In this document: positions 97 through 61,796 of the stretch, one piece after another | Layout of the letters: every line of letters starts with the position of its first letter | How positions within the stretch are numbered: position 1 is the stretch's first letter | From: Natrarchaeobius chitinivorans | Lineage (GTDB): Archaea > Halobacteriota > Halobacteria > Halobacteriales > Natrialbaceae | DNA: 64,000 bases | NCBI RefSeq assembly: GCF_003841505.1 | Contig: NZ_REGA01000001.1 | Span: 434,001 to 498,000 of the forward strand | Reading direction: 5' to 3' | The notes under the pieces: model-generated | Seen by the model: only the letters and a program-made list of their open reading frames with translations | Told to the model about the DNA's origin: nothing | Database searches by the model: none | Translations under genes and position numbers: made by a program

Positions 97-1089
97 ATGG
101 TCAGTAAAACCGGGGTCGGTCGACTCGCGATCGTTCTGTCGGCGGTGGTACTGTTCGCCGTCGTCGGTGTGGGACTGTTCGTCATGTATCCGGAGACGCT
201 TGCGGACCTGTTCGGCGTCGTCCTCGCGATCGGCGTGTTGCTCGCCGGTCTCAAGATCGCAGGAAACGTCGCCGGATCGTTGTTTCCCGGCTACGACGTC
301 GCCGAGGTCGCCGTCGAGGGGCCGATCACTCGCGACGGCGGCGGACGGTTCCCCTCGAGTCCGGGCTCGACGCCCGCCGACGATATCGTCGAACAGATCG
401 ACCGAGCCGAGGAGGACGACAACGTCCGTGCGCTCCTGTTGAAGTTGAACACGCCCGGCGGCGAAGTCGTCCCGAGCGACGATATCAGGCTCGCGGCCGA
501 GCGCTTCGACGGGCCGACGGTCGCGTACGCCACCGACGTCTGTGCGAGCGGCGGCTACTGGATCGCAAGCGGCTGTGACGAACTCTGGGCGCGCGAGGGA
601 TCGATCGTCGGTTCGATCGGCGTCATCGGCTCCCGGGTGAACGCCAGCGAACTCGCGGAGAAGGTCGGCCTCTCCTACGAGCGACTCGCCGCAGGCGAGT
701 ACAAGGACGCGGGCACGCCGCTGAAGGAACTCGAAGAAGACGAACGCGAGTACCTCCAGGGAGTGATCGACGACTACTACGAGACGTTCGTCGAACGCGT
801 CAGCGACGGACGCGACCTCGAGCCGGAGTTCGTCCGTGAGACCGAGGCGCGCATCTACCTCGGTGACTCCGCTCACGAACTGGGTCTCGTCGACGAGTTG
901 GGCACTCGTCGCGACATCGAGGACGAACTCGCTGACCGGCTCGGAACCGACGACGTGGCAGTCGAGGAGTTCGAACCTCAGCGGCCGCTGATGGCTCGCG
1001 TCGGTGCCGGAGCGAGAGGGATCGCCTACGCCTTCGGAGCCGGCATCGCCGGGCTGGCCGAACAGCGGGAGTTTCGTCTCCGACTCTGA
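97..1089 (+). CDS. sppA: Signal peptide peptidase SppA (S49 family)
   Basis: Membrane serine protease of family S49 that degrades leftover signal peptides and other membrane peptides. The protein has 330 residues. Two hydrophobic segments lie near residues 8-28 and 33-53, followed by the S49 domain. The nucleophile is Ser151 in the CASGGYW motif and the general base is Lys203 in GEYKDAG, the usual single-domain SppA dyad. An in-frame GTG lies at 88, but the ATG at 97 has the better-placed GAGGTG site and is preferred. The stop codon TGA begins palindromic element A1. The next gene, a DUF373 protein, is on the same strand but separated by this element. Confidence 0.93.
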   Translation: MVSKTGVGRLAIVLSAVVLFAVVGVGLFVMYPETLADLFGVVLAIGVLLAGLKIAGNVAGSLFPGYDVAEVAVEGPITRDGGGRFPSSPGSTPADDIVEQIDRAEEDDNVRALLLKLNTPGGEVVPSDDIRLAAERFDGPTVAYATDVCASGGYWIASGCDELWAREGSIVGSIGVIGSRVNASELAEKVGLSYERLAAGEYKDAGTPLKELEEDEREYLQGVIDDYYETFVERVSDGRDLEPEFVRETEARIYLGDSAHELGLVDELGTRRDIEDELADRLGTDDVAVEEFEPQRPLMARVGAGARGIAYAFGAGIAGLAEQREFRLRL

Positions 1090-1170
1090 GACGGATTGGT
1101 GTACCGATGGACCGGCACACCCGCCTCCCGGACCGCGGGCACGTCGGAACTGACGGACAGTAAACCGTAT
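1087..1170. repeat. Palindromic element family A, copy A1 (degraded)
   Basis: The copy starts with TGAGACGG, where TGA is the sppA stop, and ends with ACAGTAAACCGTAT. Inside are a left part ACCGGCACACCCGC and a right part GCGGGCAC that resemble the central stem of intact copies, but the stem is eroded. It lies between two genes on the plus strand. See copies A2 to A7 for the intact form. Confidence 0.7.
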
Positions 1171-1331
1171 GAGGGCAACCGGGAACGGCTCTCACGGGAT
1201 GGACGCGCTCGAGTGACCGGTGCGTTCGACGTCGGAGCCGGGCCGACGGCTCGAGCGAGGGTGGATCTCACAGACGGAGCCGAGGCGAACGAGTAAGTGG
1301 TTTTATCGTCTCACAGAAAGGAACGGATACC

Positions 1332-14796: not shown

Positions 14797-14848
14797 GCGC
14801 GGTACCCCGCCGGGTCCGCGAATCGGGAGGGCGAGAATCCCGGTCTTC

Positions 14849-14930
14849 ATACGGTTTACTGTAAATCAGTACCGGCGCACCCGTCGTCCGGGTCGCGGGT
14901 GCGCCGGTAAACAGGTACAGTAATCCGTAT
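14849..14930. repeat. Palindromic element family A, copy A2
   Basis: An intact 82-base copy. The outer arms are ATACGGTTTACTGT and ACAGTAATCCGTAT, and the central perfect 13-base stem is ACCGGCGCACCCG (14871-14883) with CGGGTGCGCCGGT (14896-14908). It lies 52 bases after the polB2 stop and is the main content of the 336-base gap to 15132, which otherwise holds the promoter region of the next gene. Confidence 0.9.
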
Positions 14931-15061
14931 CAGAGAAGACTAAACACTAACAGTGACGGTCTCGAATTCAGTTGTACGGCACCACATTTATGCCTCCTAG
15001 CCGATTCTTGAAAGGCAATCGGTTCATGGACGCACTCGATTCACTGGCAGGATATCTACAC

Positions 15062-18778: not shown

Positions 18779-18832
18779 CGACCGAGCGTATGGTTTCGGC
18801 GCTGAAAAGCGTGTCTGCTCGACCGACGACTC

Positions 18833-18914
18833 ATACGGATTGCTGTACCTGTGTACCGGCGCACCCGTAACCCGGGCGGCGGGTGCGCCGGCAATGACGT
18901 ACAGTAAACCGTAT
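18833..18914. repeat. Palindromic element family A, copy A3
   Basis: An 82-base copy, with ATACGGATTGCTGT at the left and ACAGTAAACCGTAT at the right. The central stem is CCGGCGCACCCG with CGGGTGCGCCGG. It lies between the ArsR gene and the secreted protein gene, both on the minus strand, and does not touch a stop codon. A partial right end (ACAGCAATCCGCATCAG) follows at about 18969-18985. Confidence 0.88.
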
Positions 18915-19007
18915 CACCGACCGAGGAATCGTCCGTCATCCCATCGCCGCTTCGGCGGGACATCGGGACAGCAATCCGCATCAGAGAGTACTCCCGTCGG
19001 ACTACCG

Positions 19008-19757
19008 TTACTCCCCGTCGGCAAGTGCTGATGCGTTTTCGCTCTGCTCAGCCACGGTCGCGTTCTCGCCCTGTCCGGGCACCGTCGCGTTCGCGTCCTG
19101 TTCGGGCACCGTCGCGTTCTCGCCCTGTTCGGGCCCCGTCGCGTCGTCGTCGTGACCTGGTGGCGTCACGTCGTCGCCGCCACTGACGTTAGATGCGGGA
19201 GCCGGCGACTGACCGTGGTATCCCGTCAGGCCACGCGCAGCCATTGAAACGTTCGATGCCGAGAGATCCGTGGCGTTCGACTGAAGTCCGTCGAGTCGGT
19301 CGTGGTCCACGCCAGCGTCGGCCGCTCGCGGAACGGTTCGATCGATCGATCGCTCGAGTGCCGCTATTTCGACCGCGAGTTTCGCCATCCGTGCGTGATA
19401 CTCTCCCGTGGAGAGAGTCTCGTTCCCCTCGCTGAGTTCGTCGCGTTCGGCCTCGAGCGCCTCGAGTCGGACCTCGAGTTCGGCCACGCGGTCGTCGACG
19501 AGCGTCGCCCTGTCGTCGTCGCTAGCCCGTTCGTACTTCGTTTCGAACAGACCCGACTCGACCGTGTTCGCGGTGTCAGCGGCGCTCGATTGCATAAACG
19601 ACGAGACGGTGTGATTCGCTTCCGAGTCGACGGTTTCGTTCGATGGCGACTCGGTGTCGGCGGGCGAGCTCGCGACCGCGCCACCTGCGACGGGTGCAAT
19701 CGTCAGCCCGACTACCGTGGCGAGAACGAGGACGGCGAGGGCCCGAGTAGCTCTCAT
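19008..19757 (-). CDS. Secreted coiled-coil protein with sequon repeats (DUF7096-like)
   Basis: A 249-residue exported protein. It has a signal peptide (residues 1-28, RALAVLVLATVVGLTIAPVAGG) and a coiled-coil core at about 70-140 (LEVRLEALEAERDELSEG). The C-terminal 45 residues consist of nine-residue units built on PEQGENATV, each with an N-glycosylation sequon (NAT or NAS). Similar haloarchaeal proteins are grouped as DUF7096; that assignment is from memory. It probably sits outside the membrane. A TATA-like TTTTTAGT about 30 bases upstream fits a leaderless start. Confidence 0.75.
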   Translation of the reverse strand: MRATRALAVLVLATVVGLTIAPVAGGAVASSPADTESPSNETVDSEANHTVSSFMQSSAADTANTVESGLFETKYERASDDDRATLVDDRVAELEVRLEALEAERDELSEGNETLSTGEYHARMAKLAVEIAALERSIDRTVPRAADAGVDHDRLDGLQSNATDLSASNVSMAARGLTGYHGQSPAPASNVSGGDDVTPPGHDDDATGPEQGENATVPEQDANATVPGQGENATVAEQSENASALADGE

Positions 19758-20204: not shown

Positions 20205-20609
20205 ATGTTCGAGGTGTTCTCTGGCAGCTACTATCTCGGACGACTGTACGTGACCCCCACCGCCGGGGACCGTGCGGCCATGCACCGTGATCAACACGAG
20301 CGCATCAACGAGGAAGTGTATGCGACCGGCGAAGGCGTCGAACGGCTCGACGCACCGCTCGTGATGAAACTCGAGTCCCGGCACTTCCCGGTTCACGGCG
20401 ACGAAGCCGTTCCGGCGAACACGCTCGCAGTGCCGGAATCGATGCTCGAAGAGACCGACGTCAAGAATCCACCGTCGCTTCGCGAGGTGTTTCTCGCCCG
20501 TCGCGACCGCGCACGGCAGTTGCTCGAGTTCGCTGGCGGCTGGCAGCCGGGCGGATCGTATTCCGGCGAGTACGATCCGACGGCGACCGACGACGAAACC
20601 GCAGGCTAG
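20205..20609 (+). CDS. DUF5802 family protein
   Basis: A 134-residue haloarchaeal protein of the DUF5802 family, function unknown. It begins MFEVFSGSYYLGRLYVTP and contains the conserved segments MHRDQHERINEEVYATGEGVERL and LVMKLESRHFPVHGDE. A TATA-like TAGTTATG lies about 35 bases upstream. Its TAG stop is the first three bases of palindromic element B1. The last 20 residues are low in complexity and not conserved-looking. Confidence 0.85.
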   Translation: MFEVFSGSYYLGRLYVTPTAGDRAAMHRDQHERINEEVYATGEGVERLDAPLVMKLESRHFPVHGDEAVPANTLAVPESMLEETDVKNPPSLREVFLARRDRARQLLEFAGGWQPGGSYSGEYDPTATDDETAG

Positions 20610-20692
20610 TACCCTCCCAACCGTCGACTGCTGAGCGAAATCGGACCACACCGCGTGATTTCGCTCACCAGTTCAGGCCTGGGACGTCACTA
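20607..20692. repeat. Palindromic element family B, copy B1
   Basis: An 86-base copy that begins TAGTACCCTCCCAA, where TAG is the DUF5802 stop, and ends GGGACGTCACTA. An inner perfect stem GAGCGAAATC / GATTTCGCTC encloses a loop GGACCACACCGCGT. The outer part is CCCAA with a matching GGCCTGGG. Its end runs directly into element C1. Confidence 0.88.
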
Positions 20693-20774
20693 TAGTAGCC
20701 ACTGAACGTCATTGCACACCCGATCGCCAGACTGATCGGCGATCGGTGTGTACATCGTTTCAGTTGTTACTATA
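20691..20774. repeat. Palindromic element family C, copy C1
   Basis: An 84-base nested palindrome. The outer arms TATAGTAGCCACTGAACG and CGTTTCAGTTGTTACTATA are imperfect inverses. The inner arms CACACCCGATCGCC and GGCGATCGGTGTG pair with a one-base bulge. It is fused to the end of B1 and ends 63 bases before the Vms1-like gene. Confidence 0.85.
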
Positions 20775-20837
20775 GCACCGTCGCTTCCCCGCGAGCCCCG
20801 GAATCTAAAAGTAGCTCCGCTTCGCGTGTTCGGTCGG

Positions 20838-24560: not shown

Positions 24561-24597
24561 CTTCCGGCGACGGTTACCCGCACGCAGTCAAAAGGCC

Positions 24598-24689
24598 GTC
24601 GGCTCGCAACACTCCGGACCGTCGGCTCGCGACACTCCGGACCCTCAGCTCGCGACACTCCGAACCGTCGGCTCGCGCCATTTCGCTCG
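24598..24689. repeat. 23-bp tandem repeat, about four units
   Basis: Units start at 24598, 24621, 24644 and 24667; they share GGCTCGC and ACACTCCGGACC, and the fourth is diverged. The sequence differs from the 23-base array at 7037, but the unit length is the same. It lies in the 347-base gap upstream of cofC. Confidence 0.8.
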
Positions 24690-24793: not shown

Positions 24794-24878
24794 ATTGCGT
24801 ACTCGGACGGATCAGTGTCCGTCGTCTCCGGTAGGGCCGGTGTTCGTCAGCGCCGTGTGAGCGCGATCCGCCCCCGAT

Positions 24879-24908
24879 TCGCCGGAAAACCGGTACACCA
24901 GACCGTAT
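24879..24908. repeat. Half copy of palindromic element A at the cetZ stop
   Basis: CCGGTACACCAGACCGTATC matches the right half of family A (GCCGGTACACAG, then CCGTAT). The trailing TCA at 24908-24910 is the cetZ stop codon read on the minus strand, the same placement as in copies A4, A5 and A6. Confidence 0.55.
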
Positions 24909-26086
24909 CAGAACAGCGGCTCGAGTTCGTCCTCGTCGTCCTCGACGAGTTCCTCGAGGTTTTCTTCGCTTTCGGCCTGGATGTCGTCGATGTTGTCCTG
25001 TGCTTCGATCGCGACCTGCTGCAGACGCTTGATTCGCGGGACGTTCGTGACGCCCGAAAGCAGGATCGCTGCGGCGACCTCCGGTTCGTTTCTCGGAAAG
25101 TCACCGCCGCGGACTTCCATGCTGCCGGTTTCCTCTTCGAGCCACTTGCGCCCGCGTTCGATCCCTTTTCTGTTCAGGTACTCGGAGGGGCCGGAGAGAA
25201 CGAGCAGGGCGCGTTCGGTCCCTTCTATCTCACAGGGGAGCGTGAGCCGGCCGAGAGCGGCCTTTCGAACGAGGCTCGTGATCCGGTTGGTCGTGTTCGC
25301 CGCGTCGAGGTCGTCGCCACCCCCGTCGTCGGCCGTAAATCGAGAGAGAAGGCCGCCGCCACTCGAGAGTTCGACGTTCTCGCTCGCGAATCCGACCGTC
25401 GAGACGCCGCCGCCCGAGAGGGTGTTGATGATCTCGGAGGAGTCGACGACGCTCTCTGCCACCTCCTGGTTGCCGGTTACCTCCCCGGCACCGAAGAGAA
25501 TGCCGAACCGACGAACGATCTCCTCGTTGATCTGGTCGTATCCGCCCTCGACGGATTCGCCGGTCTGTCGCCACGAGTCGTTGTCGAAGACGAGTAGATT
25601 GTCGACCTCGCGGACGAACGTCTGGAACGAGCGCGCGGCGTTGAGCGTGTAGATACCGCCCTCGTCCGTTCCCGGCAACACGCCGAGACCGTACACCGGG
25701 ATCGTGTAGATCCGTTTGAGGTGTTTTGCGAGCACCGGAGCGCCACCGGAGCCCGTTCCGCCACCCATACCGGCGACGATCAGGAACGCGTCGACTTCGT
25801 GGGTCGGAATCGCGTCGATCGCGTTCTGAACCTCGTCGATGTCCTCTTCGGCGATTTCCGCGCCGAGTTCGTTGTCCGCACCAACACCGTGGCCCTTGAC
25901 GCGGGCCTGCCCGATGAGTACGCGGTTGTCCTGGGGGATGCGATCGAGACCCATAAGGTCAGCTTTCGCGGAGTTAACCGCGATCGCAGCCCGGACGATC
26001 CCGCTGTTCGTTCGATCGTCGTAGTCGAGAAATCGATCGACGATCTTGCCACCGGCCTGTCCGAATCCGATCATCGCCAGCTTCAT
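24908..26086 (-). CDS. cetZ: CetZ tubulin-superfamily protein (CetZ1-like)
   Basis: GTP-binding cytoskeletal protein of the archaeal CetZ group, 392 residues. It begins MKLAMIGFGQAGGKIVDRF and has the tubulin signature GMGGGTGSGG at 107-116. The near identity of long stretches to CetZ1 (for example AARSFQTFVREVDNLLVFDN) places it in the CetZ1 subgroup, which controls rod-cell development and motility in Haloferax. The acidic C-terminal tail ends in ELEPLF. An inverted repeat overlaps the promoter region upstream. The stop is inside a half copy of repeat A. Confidence 0.95.
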   Translation of the reverse strand: MKLAMIGFGQAGGKIVDRFLDYDDRTNSGIVRAAIAVNSAKADLMGLDRIPQDNRVLIGQARVKGHGVGADNELGAEIAEEDIDEVQNAIDAIPTHEVDAFLIVAGMGGGTGSGGAPVLAKHLKRIYTIPVYGLGVLPGTDEGGIYTLNAARSFQTFVREVDNLLVFDNDSWRQTGESVEGGYDQINEEIVRRFGILFGAGEVTGNQEVAESVVDSSEIINTLSGGGVSTVGFASENVELSSGGGLLSRFTADDGGGDDLDAANTTNRITSLVRKAALGRLTLPCEIEGTERALLVLSGPSEYLNRKGIERGRKWLEEETGSMEVRGGDFPRNEPEVAAAILLSGVTNVPRIKRLQQVAIEAQDNIDDIQAESEENLEELVEDDEDELEPLF

Positions 26087-30243: not shown

Positions 30244-30473
30244 TGGTTACAGCGTACGTCATGATCAAGGCGAACACGGGAGAGGCGGACCGACTTCGAG
30301 ACGACATCGAGGGGATCGACGGCGTTCGATCGGCACACATCGTCGCCGGAGACGTCGACATCATCGCGAAGGCGCGAGTGGAGACCCCCGCGGAAGTAAA
30401 GGAAATCGCGGCGAACCAGATGCAGGGGATCGACGGCGTAGAGGACACACAGACCTACATCGCGATGGACTAA
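30243..30473 (+). CDS. AsnC/Lrp-type ligand-binding (RAM) domain protein
   Basis: A 76-residue RAM-only protein, paralogous to the one at 29195. Shared segments are AHIVAG and the C-terminal TYIAMD, with an intervening DVDIIAKARVETPAEV. The start overlaps the trkA stop by one base. Haloarchaea often pair this gene with trkA, so a role in sensing for potassium transport is likely but inferred. Its TAA stop touches the end of palindromic element B3. Confidence 0.88.
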   Translation: MVTAYVMIKANTGEADRLRDDIEGIDGVRSAHIVAGDVDIIAKARVETPAEVKEIAANQMQGIDGVEDTQTYIAMD

Positions 30474-30557
30474 GTGGCGTCCCAAGCCTGAACTGGTGAG
30501 CGAAATCACGCGGTGTGGTCCGATTTCGCTCAGCAGTCGACGCTTGGGAGGGTACTA
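30472..30557. repeat. Palindromic element family B, copy B3 (inverted)
   Basis: An 86-base copy in the opposite orientation to B1 and B2. It begins at the TAA stop of the RAM gene (AAGTGGCGTCCCAAGCC) and ends CTTGGGAGGGTACTA. The stem GAGCGAAATC / GATTTCGCTC is perfect. Confidence 0.9.
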
Positions 30558-41231: not shown

Positions 41232-42926
41232 ATGACCCCCTCACTACCGACAGCCGTCCAGTCGAGACGCCTGCGAGACACCCTCGAGCGACGCGTCGGT
41301 ATCGACCAACGCGCGCTCGCGACGTTTCGAATTACGCTCGGAGTCGTCCTCCTGTTCGACGTCGTCCACCGATCCCGAAATCTGGTCGCGTTCTACACCG
41401 ACGACGGCGTCCTTCCGCGGGCTGTTCACCTCGAGGGGGCGGGGTGGGACGGCGTCTACTCGCTACACTCGTTGTCGGGCGAACCGTGGTTTCAGGCGTT
41501 TTTGTTCGGCCTGTCTGCGATACTCGCGGTCGCGCTGATCGCGGGCTACCGTCCCCGACTCGCGGCGGCCCTCTCGCTTATTCTGCTCGTCTCGGTCCAC
41601 CTGCGAAACCCACACGTCCTGAACGGTGCCGACAGGCTGTTTCGAGAACTGCTGTTTCTCTCGATCTTCCTCCCGATCGGCTCCCGGTGGGCGATCGGCG
41701 CGGGTGGAGCGGACGCGAGCGATGACGACCCGACGAACGGCTCGAGCGACGACGAACCGGCGAACAGCTCGAGCGTCGACACAGTGGACGCGGGTGACGA
41801 CGACACAGCCGGTGCGAGCGACGACGAACGAACGAACCCGAACGATGACGACCGGACGAACGCGAACGACGATCCGGTCGAAAGCCGAACAACGACCCCG
41901 GTGACGGCAGCCGTGCTGGTTTACGTCGTCACCGTCCTCTTCAACAACGCAGTGCACAAGTTCGCGGGGGAGACGTGGGTCGGCGGCGACGCGTTACGGT
42001 ACGCGCTCGGACAGGACCACCTGACGATCCTGCTCGGCACCCACCTCGCGAACCAGCCGGTTCTCCTCGAGGTCGGCACGTACGTCTGGTTCGGACTGCT
42101 CGCCGGATCGCCGCTGCTGTTCGCGTTCGGCGACCGACTCCGAATCGGCTACGTGAGCGTCTTTCTGGCGGCGGTCGGCGGAATGGCGCTGAGTATGGCC
42201 GTCGGTCTCTTCCCGCCGCTTCTGGCCGCGTCGATGATCCTCTTTCTCCCGCCGCGAACGTGGACCCGCCTCGAGTCGGTGGGAACGTGGACCCGTCTCG
42301 AGTCGGCGCGAACGTGGACCCGGTTCGAGTTCGCGGGGTCGGCGTCCCGCGAGAGACTCTCGAGCGGGGCGGGTCGACTTTCGAAGGGAGCGAAGGAGAC
42401 GTCGACGGCGAAACCGGAAGGGAAAGGCTCGAGTCGCCGCGTGCGTCGACGCCTTCGGTCGGCCGGTCGCTGGCTCGTCCTCGTCGTCGTCGTGGTGTGG
42501 TGTGTCGGCCTCTTCGGATCCACACCCGCCCTCGAACTGGCAGACGGGGTGAATCCTGAAGAACACCAGTGGGGGATGTTCGCTCCCGATCCGAGCGCGA
42601 GCTACGGCTGGTACACGGTCGCGGCCGACCTCGAGGAGGACGAGGCGGTCGACGTCCTCGCCGGATCGGAACTGCGGGCGGATCCTCCGCCCGACGCCGC
42701 CGAGACGATCCCCGACTTTCGCTGGCGACGGTACATGAACACGCTCGCGGAGAGCGACGCCCGTGACGATCGGTTCGCCGAATACGCCTGCGAACGCGTA
42801 GCGACCCAACACGACGCGACCGTTGAGAGCGTAAACGTGACCTACACGCACCAGCCGGTCGAACTCGAGGGGGAGACGCCGGAACCGACGACGCGGGTCG
42901 TCGTCGAAAACCGCTCGTGTTCGTGA
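41232..42926 (+). CDS. HTTM-domain membrane protein (vitamin K carboxylase-like)
   Basis: A 564-residue polytopic protein with the HTTM domain shared with vitamin K-dependent gamma-carboxylase. It begins with LATFRITLGVVLLFDVVHR and an FYTDDGVLPR segment; several helices follow, including the motif VLFNNAVHKFAGETWV. Two insertions are unusual: an acidic Thr/Asn/Asp-rich tract at about 162-215 in a loop, and three units of a nine-residue repeat (RTWTRLES) at about 341-368 encoded by 27-base tandem DNA. Function unknown in archaea. It is followed closely by nurA. Confidence 0.85.
   Translation: MTPSLPTAVQSRRLRDTLERRVGIDQRALATFRITLGVVLLFDVVHRSRNLVAFYTDDGVLPRAVHLEGAGWDGVYSLHSLSGEPWFQAFLFGLSAILAVALIAGYRPRLAAALSLILLVSVHLRNPHVLNGADRLFRELLFLSIFLPIGSRWAIGAGGADASDDDPTNGSSDDEPANSSSVDTVDAGDDDTAGASDDERTNPNDDDRTNANDDPVESRTTTPVTAAVLVYVVTVLFNNAVHKFAGETWVGGDALRYALGQDHLTILLGTHLANQPVLLEVGTYVWFGLLAGSPLLFAFGDRLRIGYVSVFLAAVGGMALSMAVGLFPPLLAASMILFLPPRTWTRLESVGTWTRLESARTWTRFEFAGSASRERLSSGAGRLSKGAKETSTAKPEGKGSSRRVRRRLRSAGRWLVLVVVVVWCVGLFGSTPALELADGVNPEEHQWGMFAPDPSASYGWYTVAADLEEDEAVDVLAGSELRADPPPDAAETIPDFRWRRYMNTLAESDARDDRFAEYACERVATQHDATVESVNVTYTHQPVELEGETPEPTTRVVVENRSCS
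42254..42334. repeat. 27-bp tandem repeat within the HTTM gene
   Basis: Three in-frame units start at 42254, 42281 and 42308; they share GAACGTGGACCCG and CTCGAGTCGG. They encode nine residues each, so the array adds repeats of TWTRLESxR to the protein without a frame change. Confidence 0.85.
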
Positions 42927-44251: not shown

Positions 44252-44320
44252 ACGTCGTTTCGGTGGATCGACCGAACCAATCGGAAATGCCGCCGGTCGT
44301 CGCCGGCGGGGACCGTCGTC

Positions 44321-44402
44321 ATACGGTTTACTGTAAGTCATTGCCGGCGCACCCGCGACCCGGGCGGCGGGTGCGCCGGTACACAGTTACAGTAATCCGT
44401 AT
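44321..44402. repeat. Palindromic element family A, copy A4
   Basis: An intact 82-base copy. Left ATACGGTTTACTGT, right ACAGTAATCCGTAT, central stem CCGGCGCACCCG with CGGGTGCGCCGG. It lies between convergent genes. Its last base, T at 44402, starts the TCA that is the DUF7113 stop on the minus strand. Confidence 0.92.
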
Positions 44403-44746
44403 CAGGAATCCATTTCTGCGTTTCCTTTCTCGACCTCGAACTCGACCTCGGTCGGGTCGATGCCGATCCGTGCGAACTGCGTCCGAATGTGTTCTTTGGC
44501 GCGCTCGAGGGCCTGCTTGCGGGTGTCGAACCCGCGTGGCATCGGCGATTCGAAGGCGAGATTGATCTCTCGGCCGTCGACGATCTGGGCGGTCCCACCG
44601 CTTGCGACCTCGTAGAACTCGTCGCAGACCCAGACGTACGCGGCATCTTCGTCCGGCGCGCCGCGGAACGACGGTGCTCGCTCACCCCGTTCGTACAGTG
44701 TACCGGTCAGATCGGTCCCTCCCGCGAGACCGCGTACGATGAGCAT
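44402..44746 (-). CDS. DUF7113 family protein
   Basis: A 114-residue haloarchaeal protein, probably DUF7113, function unknown. It begins MLIVRGLAGGTDLTGTLYERGE, then AYVWVCDEFYEVASGG, and ends with a charged helix DTRKQALERAKEHIRTQFARIG. The ATG at 44746 is the natural start; upstream extension is Arg-rich. It is divergent from the DUF7344 regulator. The position between nurA and herA may mean a connection to DNA processing, but nothing in the sequence shows it. Confidence 0.8.
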   Translation of the reverse strand: MLIVRGLAGGTDLTGTLYERGERAPSFRGAPDEDAAYVWVCDEFYEVASGGTAQIVDGREINLAFESPMPRGFDTRKQALERAKEHIRTQFARIGIDPTEVEFEVEKGNAEMDS

Positions 44747-47720: not shown

Positions 47721-48473
47721 ATGCTCGAAGACGCGATCAGCTATCCCGTCCGTGGTCCCCACGTCGAACGGGCGTTCGTCGGGAGCCTGCTCGTCGTCGC
47801 ATCCGCGTTCGTCCTCCCGGCGTTCGTACTCGCGGGGTATTGCGTCCGCATCCTCGAGCGAACCATCGAGGGTGACGATCAGCCGCCGGCGTTCGAGGGC
47901 TGGACGAATCTCGCCACGACGGGGGCTCGAGCGGTCGTGATCGCGGTCATCTATCTACTCGGACCGCTCCTCGCGGGGGCAGTGCTGGCGCTGGTAGTCG
48001 GCGGCGTCGGCTCCGTCGCCCTCTCCGCGCTGGCCCCGTTCGTCGCCGGAAGCGAGACGCTCGTCTGGTCCACGAGCGCTCTCGCCGCGGTCCTCGTGGG
48101 AATCCTCGCACTCGCGTTCGCCTGCGTTACGTTCGTGGTCTACTACACCCTCCCGGCCGGACTGGCGATCTACGCGAGGACGGGCCGGGTTCGGGCCGCG
48201 TTCGACCGGACGGCGCTGCGACCGATCGTGACCAGCGGCGAGTACCTCCTCGCGATGGCCGTCTTGCAGGTGGTCCCGCTCGTCGTGCCGGTCGTGGCCG
48301 TCGTCTGTCTGCTCACCATCGTCGGCATCGTCGCGGTGCCGGCGATCCCGTTCGTCGCCGCCGTGGTCAGTGCGCGACTGATCGGTCTCGCCGCCGTCCG
48401 GGCGACGAACCCCGAATCGGCCGACTCCGACCGAACGACGGTCACCGACCGCGCCAGGTTCGGCCGTTCGTAG
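47721..48473 (+). CDS. DUF4013 membrane protein
   Basis: A 250-residue DUF4013 protein with about five to six hydrophobic segments rich in Ala, Val and Leu. The signature is at the N-terminus (MLEDAISYPVRGPHVERAFVGSLLV) and at LERTIEGDDQPPAFEGWTNL. Function unknown. It begins six bases after the herA stop, so it is in the same transcription unit. Element A7 follows 16 bases after its stop. Confidence 0.87.
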   Translation: MLEDAISYPVRGPHVERAFVGSLLVVASAFVLPAFVLAGYCVRILERTIEGDDQPPAFEGWTNLATTGARAVVIAVIYLLGPLLAGAVLALVVGGVGSVALSALAPFVAGSETLVWSTSALAAVLVGILALAFACVTFVVYYTLPAGLAIYARTGRVRAAFDRTALRPIVTSGEYLLAMAVLQVVPLVVPVVAVVCLLTIVGIVAVPAIPFVAAVVSARLIGLAAVRATNPESADSDRTTVTDRARFGRS

Positions 48474-48488
48474 CAACCCCGAGGTCTG

Positions 48489-48568
48489 ATACGGTCTGCT
48501 ATGAGTCTTTACCGGTCGATCGCAGAACGGTGGGCGATCGACCGGCAATCAGTCATAGCAAACCGTAT
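48489..48568. repeat. Palindromic element family A, copy A7 (variant)
   Basis: An 80-base variant with outer arms ATACGGTCTGCTATGA and TCATAGCAAACCGTAT, which are an imperfect inverse. Its inner stem is different from the other copies: CCGGTCGATCGC with GCGATCGACCGG. The sequence TGATACGG starts at 48487, but here the TGA is not a gene stop. Confidence 0.75.
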
Positions 48569-48687
48569 GAGGTGACGCTCCGAGGTCCGGGTGGTGACTC
48601 GAGGTCCGAAGGTGGGGACGTCGGATCCTCCCCCCTCGACCGGAGTACACTTGGTCGTCCCCCCGAAGATTCGAGACGGGAACCGCC

Positions 48688-50344: not shown

Positions 50345-50503
50345 CGTCGAAGCGTATGTGGATCCGGTACTTTTGCGTTGCGTCCCGGCGCGCCCGGCGG
50401 CGTCGGATCGTGCGTTCGTTCATACCGATCGTTGGAGATCGGTACCGGAGATCGCTCGGACGAGGTCGGCGATCACCGACAACACGCTACACCGATTCCT
50501 CTC

Positions 50504-50585
50504 ATACGGTTTACTGTCCGTCGTTGCCGGCGCACCCGCGACCCGGGCGGCGGGTGCGCCGGTACACAGTGACAGTAATCCGTCT
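50504..50585. repeat. Palindromic element family A, copy A5
   Basis: An intact 82-base copy. Left ATACGGTTTACTGT, right ACAGTAATCCGTCT with one change, central stem CCGGCGCACCCG / CGGGTGCGCCGG. Its last T starts the TCA that is the MFS gene stop on the minus strand. Confidence 0.92.
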
Positions 50586-51868
50586 CAATCGTCGCCCGCG
50601 ATCGGACTCGACGCCGTCTCGAGGGTTTCCTCGATCTGGGTGGTCACGAGGATCGCACCGAGAACCGCGAGGACGGTCCCGAAGACGAACGGGACGGCGA
50701 AGCCGTAGCCGACCAGCGCGCCCGAAGCGAGCGGACCGATCGCGATCCCGAAGCCAAAGGCCATCGTCAGTACCGACAGCTTCGAGCCCGATTCGCCCTC
50801 CCCCGCGAGGTCGCCCGCGAGCGCGAGCGACGGTGCGAACACCATCGCGCCCGCGATGCCCTGAGCGAGTCGGGCGAAGAACATCGCCTCCGAACTCGTC
50901 ACGAACCCCTGTGCGAGCGTCGTCGGGATCAGCAGAATCATCCCGACGACGATGAACGGCCGCCTGCCGTAGCGATCACAGGCCCGTCCGATCGGTGTCT
51001 GTAAAGCGATCTGGGCGATGATAAACGCCGCGAACTGGAGGCCGAACCAGGTCGCCCCCTGCTCGAGTCGGGCGTTGACCTGCGGCTGGATCGTCGCGAG
51101 CAGCGCGATCGTCGCGGCCATGAAAAACGAGGCGACGCCGAGCGTGAAGATCGGATCGAACAGGTGCCGACCGGACGGGTCGCGGATATCAATCGAGAGG
51201 TCGGCACCCGCGTTGGCGTTCGTCCCCTCCGGGTCCGTAATCAGGACGGTCACGAGCAGGTAGCTGAGCGCGGCCGTGATCGCGGCGACGGAGAACGCGG
51301 CGTCGAAGCCGCTTATCGTCACGCCGGAGAGCCTGTAGGGGCCGAGATTGACCACGGCACCCGCCGCGATCGGACCGGCACCGAATCCCAGCAGCCGAAA
51401 CGTGTTGTAGACCCCCATGTTCCCGCCCCGGTCCTGGGTCGTCGCGAGTTCGTTGACGAGCGCGATCGACGTCGGAACGATAAACGCCACGCTGACCCCC
51501 TGCAGGCCGCGTATCACCACGAGCGAGAGGTACGACTCCGCGAACAGGTACGCCAGGTTCGTGGCCGTGAGACCGCCGAGACCGATCAGAATGAATCGCT
51601 TGCGTTTCCCGAGACGATCCGACCATCGGCCGGTAAACGGCTGAAAGCTGCTATTGAGAAATCCGAACAGCGAGAGGATGATCCCGATGATCATCGCCTC
51701 CTCGAGGCCGAATGTCGCGCCGCCGACGACGTCGCTGGTGACGTAAAGCGGGATGACGATGATCAGAAACGAGTTGCCCACGCCGTCGGCCATCCGTGCG
51801 AACGCGAGCGCGAGCACTCGTCGGTCGACGACGAACTGGGCGATGACCCGACGAGCGAGGTCTCGCAT
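50585..51868 (-). CDS. Major facilitator superfamily transporter
   Basis: A 427-residue membrane protein with twelve predicted helices in two halves. The loop 2-3 motif is GRWSDRLGKRKRF and the matching loop 8-9 is GRACDRYGRRPF, standard MFS signatures. Drug or solute efflux is the common role of close relatives, but the substrate cannot be read from the sequence. It begins 61 bases from the divergent end of the DUF5789 region. Its stop is inside element A5. Confidence 0.9.
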   Translation of the reverse strand: MRDLARRVIAQFVVDRRVLALAFARMADGVGNSFLIIVIPLYVTSDVVGGATFGLEEAMIIGIILSLFGFLNSSFQPFTGRWSDRLGKRKRFILIGLGGLTATNLAYLFAESYLSLVVIRGLQGVSVAFIVPTSIALVNELATTQDRGGNMGVYNTFRLLGFGAGPIAAGAVVNLGPYRLSGVTISGFDAAFSVAAITAALSYLLVTVLITDPEGTNANAGADLSIDIRDPSGRHLFDPIFTLGVASFFMAATIALLATIQPQVNARLEQGATWFGLQFAAFIIAQIALQTPIGRACDRYGRRPFIVVGMILLIPTTLAQGFVTSSEAMFFARLAQGIAGAMVFAPSLALAGDLAGEGESGSKLSVLTMAFGFGIAIGPLASGALVGYGFAVPFVFGTVLAVLGAILVTTQIEETLETASSPIAGDD

Positions 51869-52013: not shown

Positions 52014-52271
52014 ATGGCCTCGGAGATCAAACTCAACGAAGTCGAGTCCGCGTTCGATCGACTCGAGTACCCGGTTGGCAACGAGGAAGCGGCGGCCGAA
52101 TTCAGCGACACGACGCTGTTGCTCGCCGATGGAGAACGAAATCTCGGCTCGCTCGTCGAGAGGAGCGACGTCGACCGCTTCGAGTCGGCCGAAGACCTCG
52201 AGTCCGAACTCCACAACGTGTTGCCCAGAGAGGCAGTCGGCGAGCCGTTCCAATCCGAAGGCGAGGGGTAG
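52014..52271 (+). CDS. DUF5789 family protein
   Basis: An 85-residue haloarchaeal DUF5789 protein, function unknown. The signature runs FDRLEYPVGNEEAAAEFSDTTLLLADGERNLGSLV and ends with LHNVLPREAVGEPFQSEGEG. The ATG at 52014 gives the normal family length; longer in-frame sequence is not supported. Its TAG stop is the start of element B2. Confidence 0.87.
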   Translation: MASEIKLNEVESAFDRLEYPVGNEEAAAEFSDTTLLLADGERNLGSLVERSDVDRFESAEDLESELHNVLPREAVGEPFQSEGEG

Positions 52272-52354
52272 TACCCTCCCAAGCGTCGACTGCTGAGCGA
52301 AATCGGACCACACCGAAGTAATTCGCTCATCAGTTCTGGCTTGGGACGCCACTA
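52269..52354. repeat. Palindromic element family B, copy B2
   Basis: An 86-base copy beginning TAGTACCCTCCCAAGC, where TAG is the DUF5789 stop, and ending GGCTTGGGACGCCACTA. The inner stem is GAGCGAAATC / ATTCGCTC (one arm reduced). The outer arms CCCAAGC and GCTTGGG pair. Confidence 0.92.
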
Positions 52355-61292: not shown

Positions 61293-61309
61293 GCGCCGTC
61301 CGATCAGTC

Positions 61310-61389
61310 ATACGGTTTACTGTACGTCATTTCCGAAGACTGCGGGACTGCGCCCGGTCGCTTCGGTACACAGTGACTGCAATCCGGAT
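61310..61389. repeat. Palindromic element family A, copy A6 (variant)
   Basis: An 80-base variant. Left ATACGGTTTACTGTACGTCAT matches A4, while the centre is another sequence (CCGAAG / CTTCGG stem) and the right end reads CAGTGACTGCAATCCGGAT. It lies between convergent genes, and its last T is the first base of the TCA stop of the minus-strand gene. Confidence 0.82.
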
Positions 61390-61796
61390 CACTCGGTCGA
61401 AGAAGATGCGATCTCGCGTCGGTCGGACGGATCGGACGGGAAGAGGGGTTTGACCGGGACGACGACGTACGACCGCACGAGGCGTCCGTCGATCGATCGC
61501 CACTTCTCGAGGCACACGAGCCGGTGTGTCTCCCGGTACGCGTCTTCGATTCGATCGAGGATCGCCTCGAAGGCGGTTACGTCGAACTCGTCCGCCGGCA
61601 CGCGGTCCGTAACGACCGCGATACCCTGCAATCGAGCGTAAACGTCGAGTCGGCCCTCGAAGGCGTGCTCGAGTTCTTCGACTCGCTCGTGGACGTCGGC
61701 GACCAGCGTTCCGTCCGTCGCCGATGGGAACGAAACGTACGCCCGGTACTGGTCGGGACGACCCGTAACGTGTCGCTTCCAGAGACGGCGCAACAT
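61389..61796 (-). CDS. Hypothetical protein
   Basis: A 135-residue soluble protein that I do not recognise. It begins MLRRLWKRHVTGRPDQYRAYVSFPS and contains DVHERVEELEHAFEGRLDVYARLQGIAVVTDRV and LEKWRSIDGRLVRSYVVVPVKP. It is alternating beta and helix. The stop lies in element A6. Upstream is a 240-base gap. Confidence 0.7.
   Translation of the reverse strand: MLRRLWKRHVTGRPDQYRAYVSFPSATDGTLVADVHERVEELEHAFEGRLDVYARLQGIAVVTDRVPADEFDVTAFEAILDRIEDAYRETHRLVCLEKWRSIDGRLVRSYVVVPVKPLFPSDPSDRREIASSSTE

Follow-up and report, generated by a model that had tools for sequence, protein, structure and literature searches.

Stop codons as insertion sites of a near-palindromic MITE-like repeat family in Natrialbaceae

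Why should the ends of one repeat coincide with the stop codons of unrelated genes? This question is raised by a 64-kb window of the Natrarchaeobius chitinivorans genome (by which we mean the whole stretch of DNA analysed; 64% GC), which carries eight copies, seven of them full and one clearly decayed, of a near-palindromic 80-bp repeat, here called family A (TACGGWTTACTGT…ACAGTAAWCCGTA), present in ~300 copies across the genome. Each copy is listed below with its coordinates and its flanking triplets, which are target-site duplications (TSDs), as set out further on.

Copy A1, 1087..1172: TSD TGA 1087-1089, element 1090-1169, TSD TGA 1170-1172 (from alignment and TSD); the left TSD is the stop codon of the S49 peptidase gene sppA (97-1089, plus strand; gene calls).
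Copy A2, 14847..14932: TCA, element 14850-14929, TCA; intergenic, off stops.
Copy A3, 18831..18916: TCA, element 18834-18913, TCA; intergenic, off stops.
Decayed copy of ~102 bp, 24803..24910: cetZ (24908-26086, minus strand) has its stop codon in the right TSD, TCA 24908-24910; left TSD eroded to TCG.
Copy A4, 44319..44404: TCA, element 44322-44401, TCA; right TSD 44402-44404 is the stop of the DUF7113 gene (44402-44746, minus strand).
Seventh copy, a 78-bp subtype with a different inner stem, 48487..48570: TGA, element 48490-48567, TGA; intergenic, off stops, 14 nt past the stop of gene 47721-48473.
Copy A5, 50502..50587: TCA, element 50505-50584, TCA; right TSD 50585-50587 is the stop of an MFS gene (50585-51868, minus strand).
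Copy A6, 61308..61391: TCA, element 61311-61388, TCA; right TSD 61389-61391 is the stop of an ORF (61389-61796, minus strand) that has no Pfam match.

The original prediction placed the ends of A1, A4, A5 and A6 on the stops of these four genes, and the gene calls bear this out. It also named two partial copies, of which the one at the cetZ stop (24908) proved to be the decayed copy, while the one at the 7TM kinase gene (37430) is an 8-base match (TGATACGG) beyond which the sequence diverges; we rejected it as a family A copy and dropped it from the count. Finally, it gave the right end of A4, A5 and A6 as CCGTA-TCA, of which the TCA holds throughout, but the inner end reads CCGTC-TCA in A5 and CCGGA-TCA in A6.

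The family A unit has a modal length of 80 bp, contains no ORF, and consists of two imperfectly palindromic arms bounded by conserved 13-bp terminal inverted repeats (TACGGWTTRCTGT) at both ends. A search for half-sites returned 597 matches in the 4.57-Mb N. chitinivorans genome, with a reversed control giving none, and a search of 80 genomes found matches in 42. Outside Natrialbaceae these were isolated single matches, so that among the 80 genomes family A is restricted to this one family, within which its distribution is very patchy (580 half-sites in N. chitinivorans, 489 and 488 in two others, and down to 0). Named hosts, all of them Natrialbaceae, include Salinadaptatus, Natrialba, Halopiger, Natrarchaeobius, Natronorubrum and Natrinema, among others, and a 137-bp version in three other genomes has the same ends and the same duplication. 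No Rfam family matched the window above its gathering score, and no match to family A was found in the phage records searched.

To characterize the triplets we assembled 212 copies from three sources: 1.12 Mb of the N. chitinivorans genome, stretches of four relatives totalling 0.8 Mb, and 53 loci of named Natrialbaceae picked up by a DNA pattern scan, with genes in this sample called by a home-made dicodon model. Matching flanks (TGA/TGA or TCA/TCA) were found at 158 copies, compared with 3 mixed pairs. Read inward, the two ends of each copy begin one with TGA and the other with TCA, as would be expected of a 3-bp direct repeat. Empty sites show the same arrangement without the insertion. At C1:421440 of the N. 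chitinivorans genome, a family A copy lies inside a repeat of another family, family B, and reads TATAGTAACAAC-TGA, the 80-bp element, and TGA-AACGGTG, while unoccupied family B copies elsewhere read TATAGTAACAACTGAAACGATG, many of them AACAAC-TGA-AACGA; likewise, a segment of one relative (G016) that holds a family A copy has a 97% identical duplicate with a single TCA. These empty sites come from repeats and other species rather than from strain polymorphism. The triplet is thus a 3-bp duplication of the target and not part of the element end, so the proposal that the element inserts at TGA stands in amended form: the target is TSA, that is TGA or its complement TCA, and it is duplicated.

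The presence of copies in a family B repeat and in a recent duplicate that also occur empty, together with copy numbers that are patchy between genera, points to movement of family A. In G016, a copy at C1:2783150 (locus L088) lies within a transposase gene of the IS630 type (DDE_3) and interrupts it, while a near-identical paralogue of this gene at ~C1:2645700 is uninterrupted; a TCA within coding sequence is thus also a target.

How often, then, do copies sit on stop codons? In 91 of the 212 copies, the TSD on the gene side and a gene's stop codon are one and the same triplet (43/100 in N. chitinivorans, 33/66 in named species, 8/32 in G016 and 7/12 in G003), compared with the 11% predicted by random choice of TSA in noncoding DNA. 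The original prediction had proposed just this comparison of end triplets and in-frame stops with chance, and had held that a majority of copies off stops would speak against it; ~57% indeed lie elsewhere, yet the number on stops exceeds chance. The offset spectrum is equally sharp: of 283 inward-reading ends in the 1.12 Mb, 55 start precisely where a gene ends, and none of the other offsets within 40 nt has more than 3. The gene ends at offset 0 comprise 54 TGA, 1 TAA and 0 TAG, so that ~9% of TGA stops (54/598) bear a family A copy, while TAA and TAG, which make up 40% of stops, are almost never used. Independent NCBI annotation places the same coincidence at an FAD-dependent oxidoreductase gene on N. 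magadii pNMAG01 and at the archease gene of a Natrinema plasmid, and hence it is no artefact of our dicodon gene calls. These results confirm that family A ends coincide with stop codons far beyond chance.

We then considered what the supply of targets alone would produce, using a target motif derived solely from non-stop insertions (ten-fold cross-validation) and computing expectations within the same intergenic gaps. Compared with background, non-stop insertions are enriched for C at -1 (70% vs. 29%), G or A at +3 (87% vs. 41%) and C at +5 (58% vs. 24%), and the motif also includes A at +4 and G at +6, giving a preferred target of C-TSA-RACG. Target supply and motif together predict 57.5 of 134 insertions on stops, with 67 observed (z 3.3); in convergent gaps, which lack promoters, 32.5 are expected and 36 observed; and after removal of re-used sites (insertions beside an older copy), 39.6 are expected and 47 observed (z 2.9). 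Supply and sequence preference thereby explain ~86% of stop insertions, with a residual of ~15% unexplained. Haloarchaeal genes often terminate in ...GAC-TGA, which matches the family A target, and in the N. chitinivorans stretches TGA preceded by C bears 25 of the 32 stop insertions even though C precedes just 39% of TGA stops (occupancy 25/233 after C, 4/223 after G). An older family A end directly follows in 20 of 67 stop insertions, compared with 5 of 67 insertions elsewhere, and such repeated use of the same stops is expected if selection maintains TGA. Most of the stop excess therefore reflects the supply of good targets and the harmlessness of a duplicated stop, with a small residual.

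Two explanations that assign a more direct role to the stop codon are both highly improbable. One, offered as an alternative in the original prediction, holds that the element end carries a stop of its own, which takes the place of the gene's earlier stop and is then kept. The rare coding insertions do end the reading frame inside the element, as in the G016 transposase gene, but the triplet comes from the target and is duplicated, and in the offset spectrum termination falls on the TSD, in no case a few codons into the element. Moreover, genes without the element were expected to reveal the old stop if the end had replaced it, and here the old stop is visible at the same place: with C-termini aligned to the last residue, 18 of 19 element-free orthologues stop with TGA at the same codon (the remaining one has TAG), such as the S49 peptidase orthologue of A1 in L125, and three congeners that lack the element (G001, G002 and G003) likewise end the MFS gene of A5 with TGA at that codon. 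In a further case, from N. aibiense, TAA occupies the same codon. These stops were not created by the element, and the idea that its end supplies a new one is rejected. The other explanation, to which we give hardly any weight either, is that the insertion machinery recognizes stop codons or translation termination itself. The sharp spike at offset 0 would fit it, but more than half of the copies lie off stops, TAA and TAG are nearly unused despite their abundance, and insertions away from genes follow the same TSA motif; family A does not specifically recognize a stop codon as such.

A third explanation, which we consider unlikely though less so than these two, is that insertion is random and positive selection retains copies at stops, where a hairpin after the stop would act as a transcription terminator or as a stabilizer of the mRNA 3' end. 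The hairpin is indeed very stable (-50.3 kcal/mol, z -6.75 for copy A4), convergent gaps and 3' flanks are preferred over divergent gaps, and the residual stop excess persists at z ~3. The inner stem also covaries: it differs between copies with pairing kept (102 double-change cells compared with 43 in shuffles and 8-25 in slid controls), and compensatory changes between alignment columns 23-35 and 46-58, including CG, AU and GC at pair 31-50, define stem subfamilies with identical ends, with both strands behaving alike. However, the excess mostly vanishes with target weighting, as in the convergent gaps; the fraction on stops shows no consistent rise with divergence (9/25 at 0 mismatches, 15/25 at 1 and 14/32 at 2 or more); a T-run is absent; and both orientations are equally common at stops. 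The more far-reaching version, in which the host has domesticated a selfish element across its genome and keeps the hairpin at ~9% of TGA stops as a 3'-end signal, whether terminator or stabilizer, is somewhat less likely still. The covariation itself may come from a hairpin on which movement depends, from homogenization of the arms or from a role as RNA; it would not be produced by simple decay of dead MITEs, and so counts against a plain MITE account.

Our preferred reading, to which we assign a probability of about 0.9, is that family A is a non-autonomous MITE-like element with a TSA target, whose 3-bp duplication preserves TGA stops and whose coding insertions are purged. The element would insert at TSA, favouring C-TSA-(G/A)(A)CG, and duplicate 3 bp, a step we regard as demonstrated. 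Insertion at a TGA stop would then give TGA-element-TGA, with the gene retaining both stop and protein, and because the duplicated TGA leaves the gene undamaged, many copies would lie exactly on gene ends. Insertions in coding DNA would be removed by selection, as the near absence of coding copies suggests; the rare exceptions are in dispensable genes, such as the IS630-type transposase. As a result, nearly half of the surviving copies would begin exactly at a stop codon, and old copies would recreate a similar junction at which the same stop can be targeted again. A transposase would presumably act in trans. Where the triplet that is targeted and duplicated happens to be a stop codon, each insertion is self-repairing, and by this rule a mobile element can fill a gene-dense genome harmlessly. 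For annotators, this means that repeat ends and gene ends may coincide for purely mechanical reasons.

With regard to class, family A shares these features with MITEs: it is short and ORF-less, with terminal inverted repeats, a fixed 3-bp duplication and signs of movement. No autonomous parent with family A ends was found among long terminal-inverted-repeat pairs in 1.1 Mb of the N. chitinivorans genome and in low-copy relatives, or in the match lists of ten relatives; across the whole genome, none of the 18 PF01609 loci has the terminal-repeat pair, and a PF13586 search gave a single sub-threshold match. Two candidate parent pairs, of 4.4 and 1.9 kb, were rejected, as ordinary genes and no transposase lie between their ends. 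A TNA target is characteristic of the IS1031-like group of the IS5 family; the PF01609 and PF13586 searches above also covered a DDE transposase of this group with family A ends.

Mycobacterial MIRUs are likewise reported at stop codons, where these overlap the start codon of the adjoining gene (TGA/ATGA); MIRUs, however, are non-palindromic, carry small ORFs, and belong to other organisms with other sequences. Bacterial and archaeal MITEs in general, such as RUP, Correia/NEMIS and ERIC, resemble family A in being short, ORF-less, hairpin-forming and mostly intergenic, with terminal inverted repeats, a target duplication and hundreds of copies, but the published description gives them a high A+T content and TA ends, with TA as the target of RUP (PMC2229807), whereas family A is GC-rich and almost entirely palindromic, with a 3-bp TSA duplication and TGA stops among its targets. 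YPAL of Yersinia, a palindromic intergenic element of 168 bp with internal inverted repeats that is expressed together with upstream genes, likewise duplicates its target, but over 3 to 26 bp (PMC2229807) rather than a constant 3 bp. Haloquadratum SMR-A, of ~110 bp, is like family A haloarchaeal, with prominent inverted terminal repeats and no known transposase, but it makes no target duplication and targets IS605/PATE (PMC3119063), and we rejected it for family A, which duplicates 3 bp at TSA in gene flanks. REP/BIME sequences with RAYT, 20-40 bp hairpins with a GTAG or CGTC foot (PMC3733652), were rejected as well, since family A is 80 bp long with TACGG ends and a 3-bp duplication. Of the pneumococcal BOX repeats, which are modular, 36 copies provide a gene with its stop codon and show no sign of truncation relative to orthologues; the passages of that study drawn on here report no comparable stop-restoring 3-bp duplication (PMC3049150). 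Our literature search found no description of family A. It is apparently a new MITE-like family, high in copy number, whose stop-codon target is self-repairing, the class of mechanism being known and the family undescribed.

The same rule predicts that other repeat families avoid or use stops according to their targets, and two further families in this genome agree. Family B, an intergenic palindrome (TATAGTAGCC...GATCG...GTTACTATA; window 20690-20776) with dozens of copies in C1 and C2 of N. chitinivorans and a different target, coincides with stops at 1 in 69-78 ends. Family C (window 20594-20692, 30473-30557 and 52256-52354) is also a palindrome; its ends, AGTACCCTCCCAA / AGTGRCGTCCCAR preceded by CT, follow CTA(G), and it lies on stops that are mostly TAG (20607-20609 and 52269-52271, with TAA at 30471-30473), with TAG stops at both ends in several copies. 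The stop coincidence of a repeat thus follows from its target triplet. Family B has also inserted into a family A copy (~C1:329080-329500). A fourth repeat, family D (ACGGCCGCGAATTCGCGACCGACGT..TCACTGACTTCTGTCCGACAGTAT), which has many copies (C1:139256, C1:275465, C1:69454 and others in N. chitinivorans), contains an empty site for family A. Finally, short tandem repeats of 23-27 bp occur in or beside genes at 19033-19167, 24596-24685 and 42250-42349 of the window.
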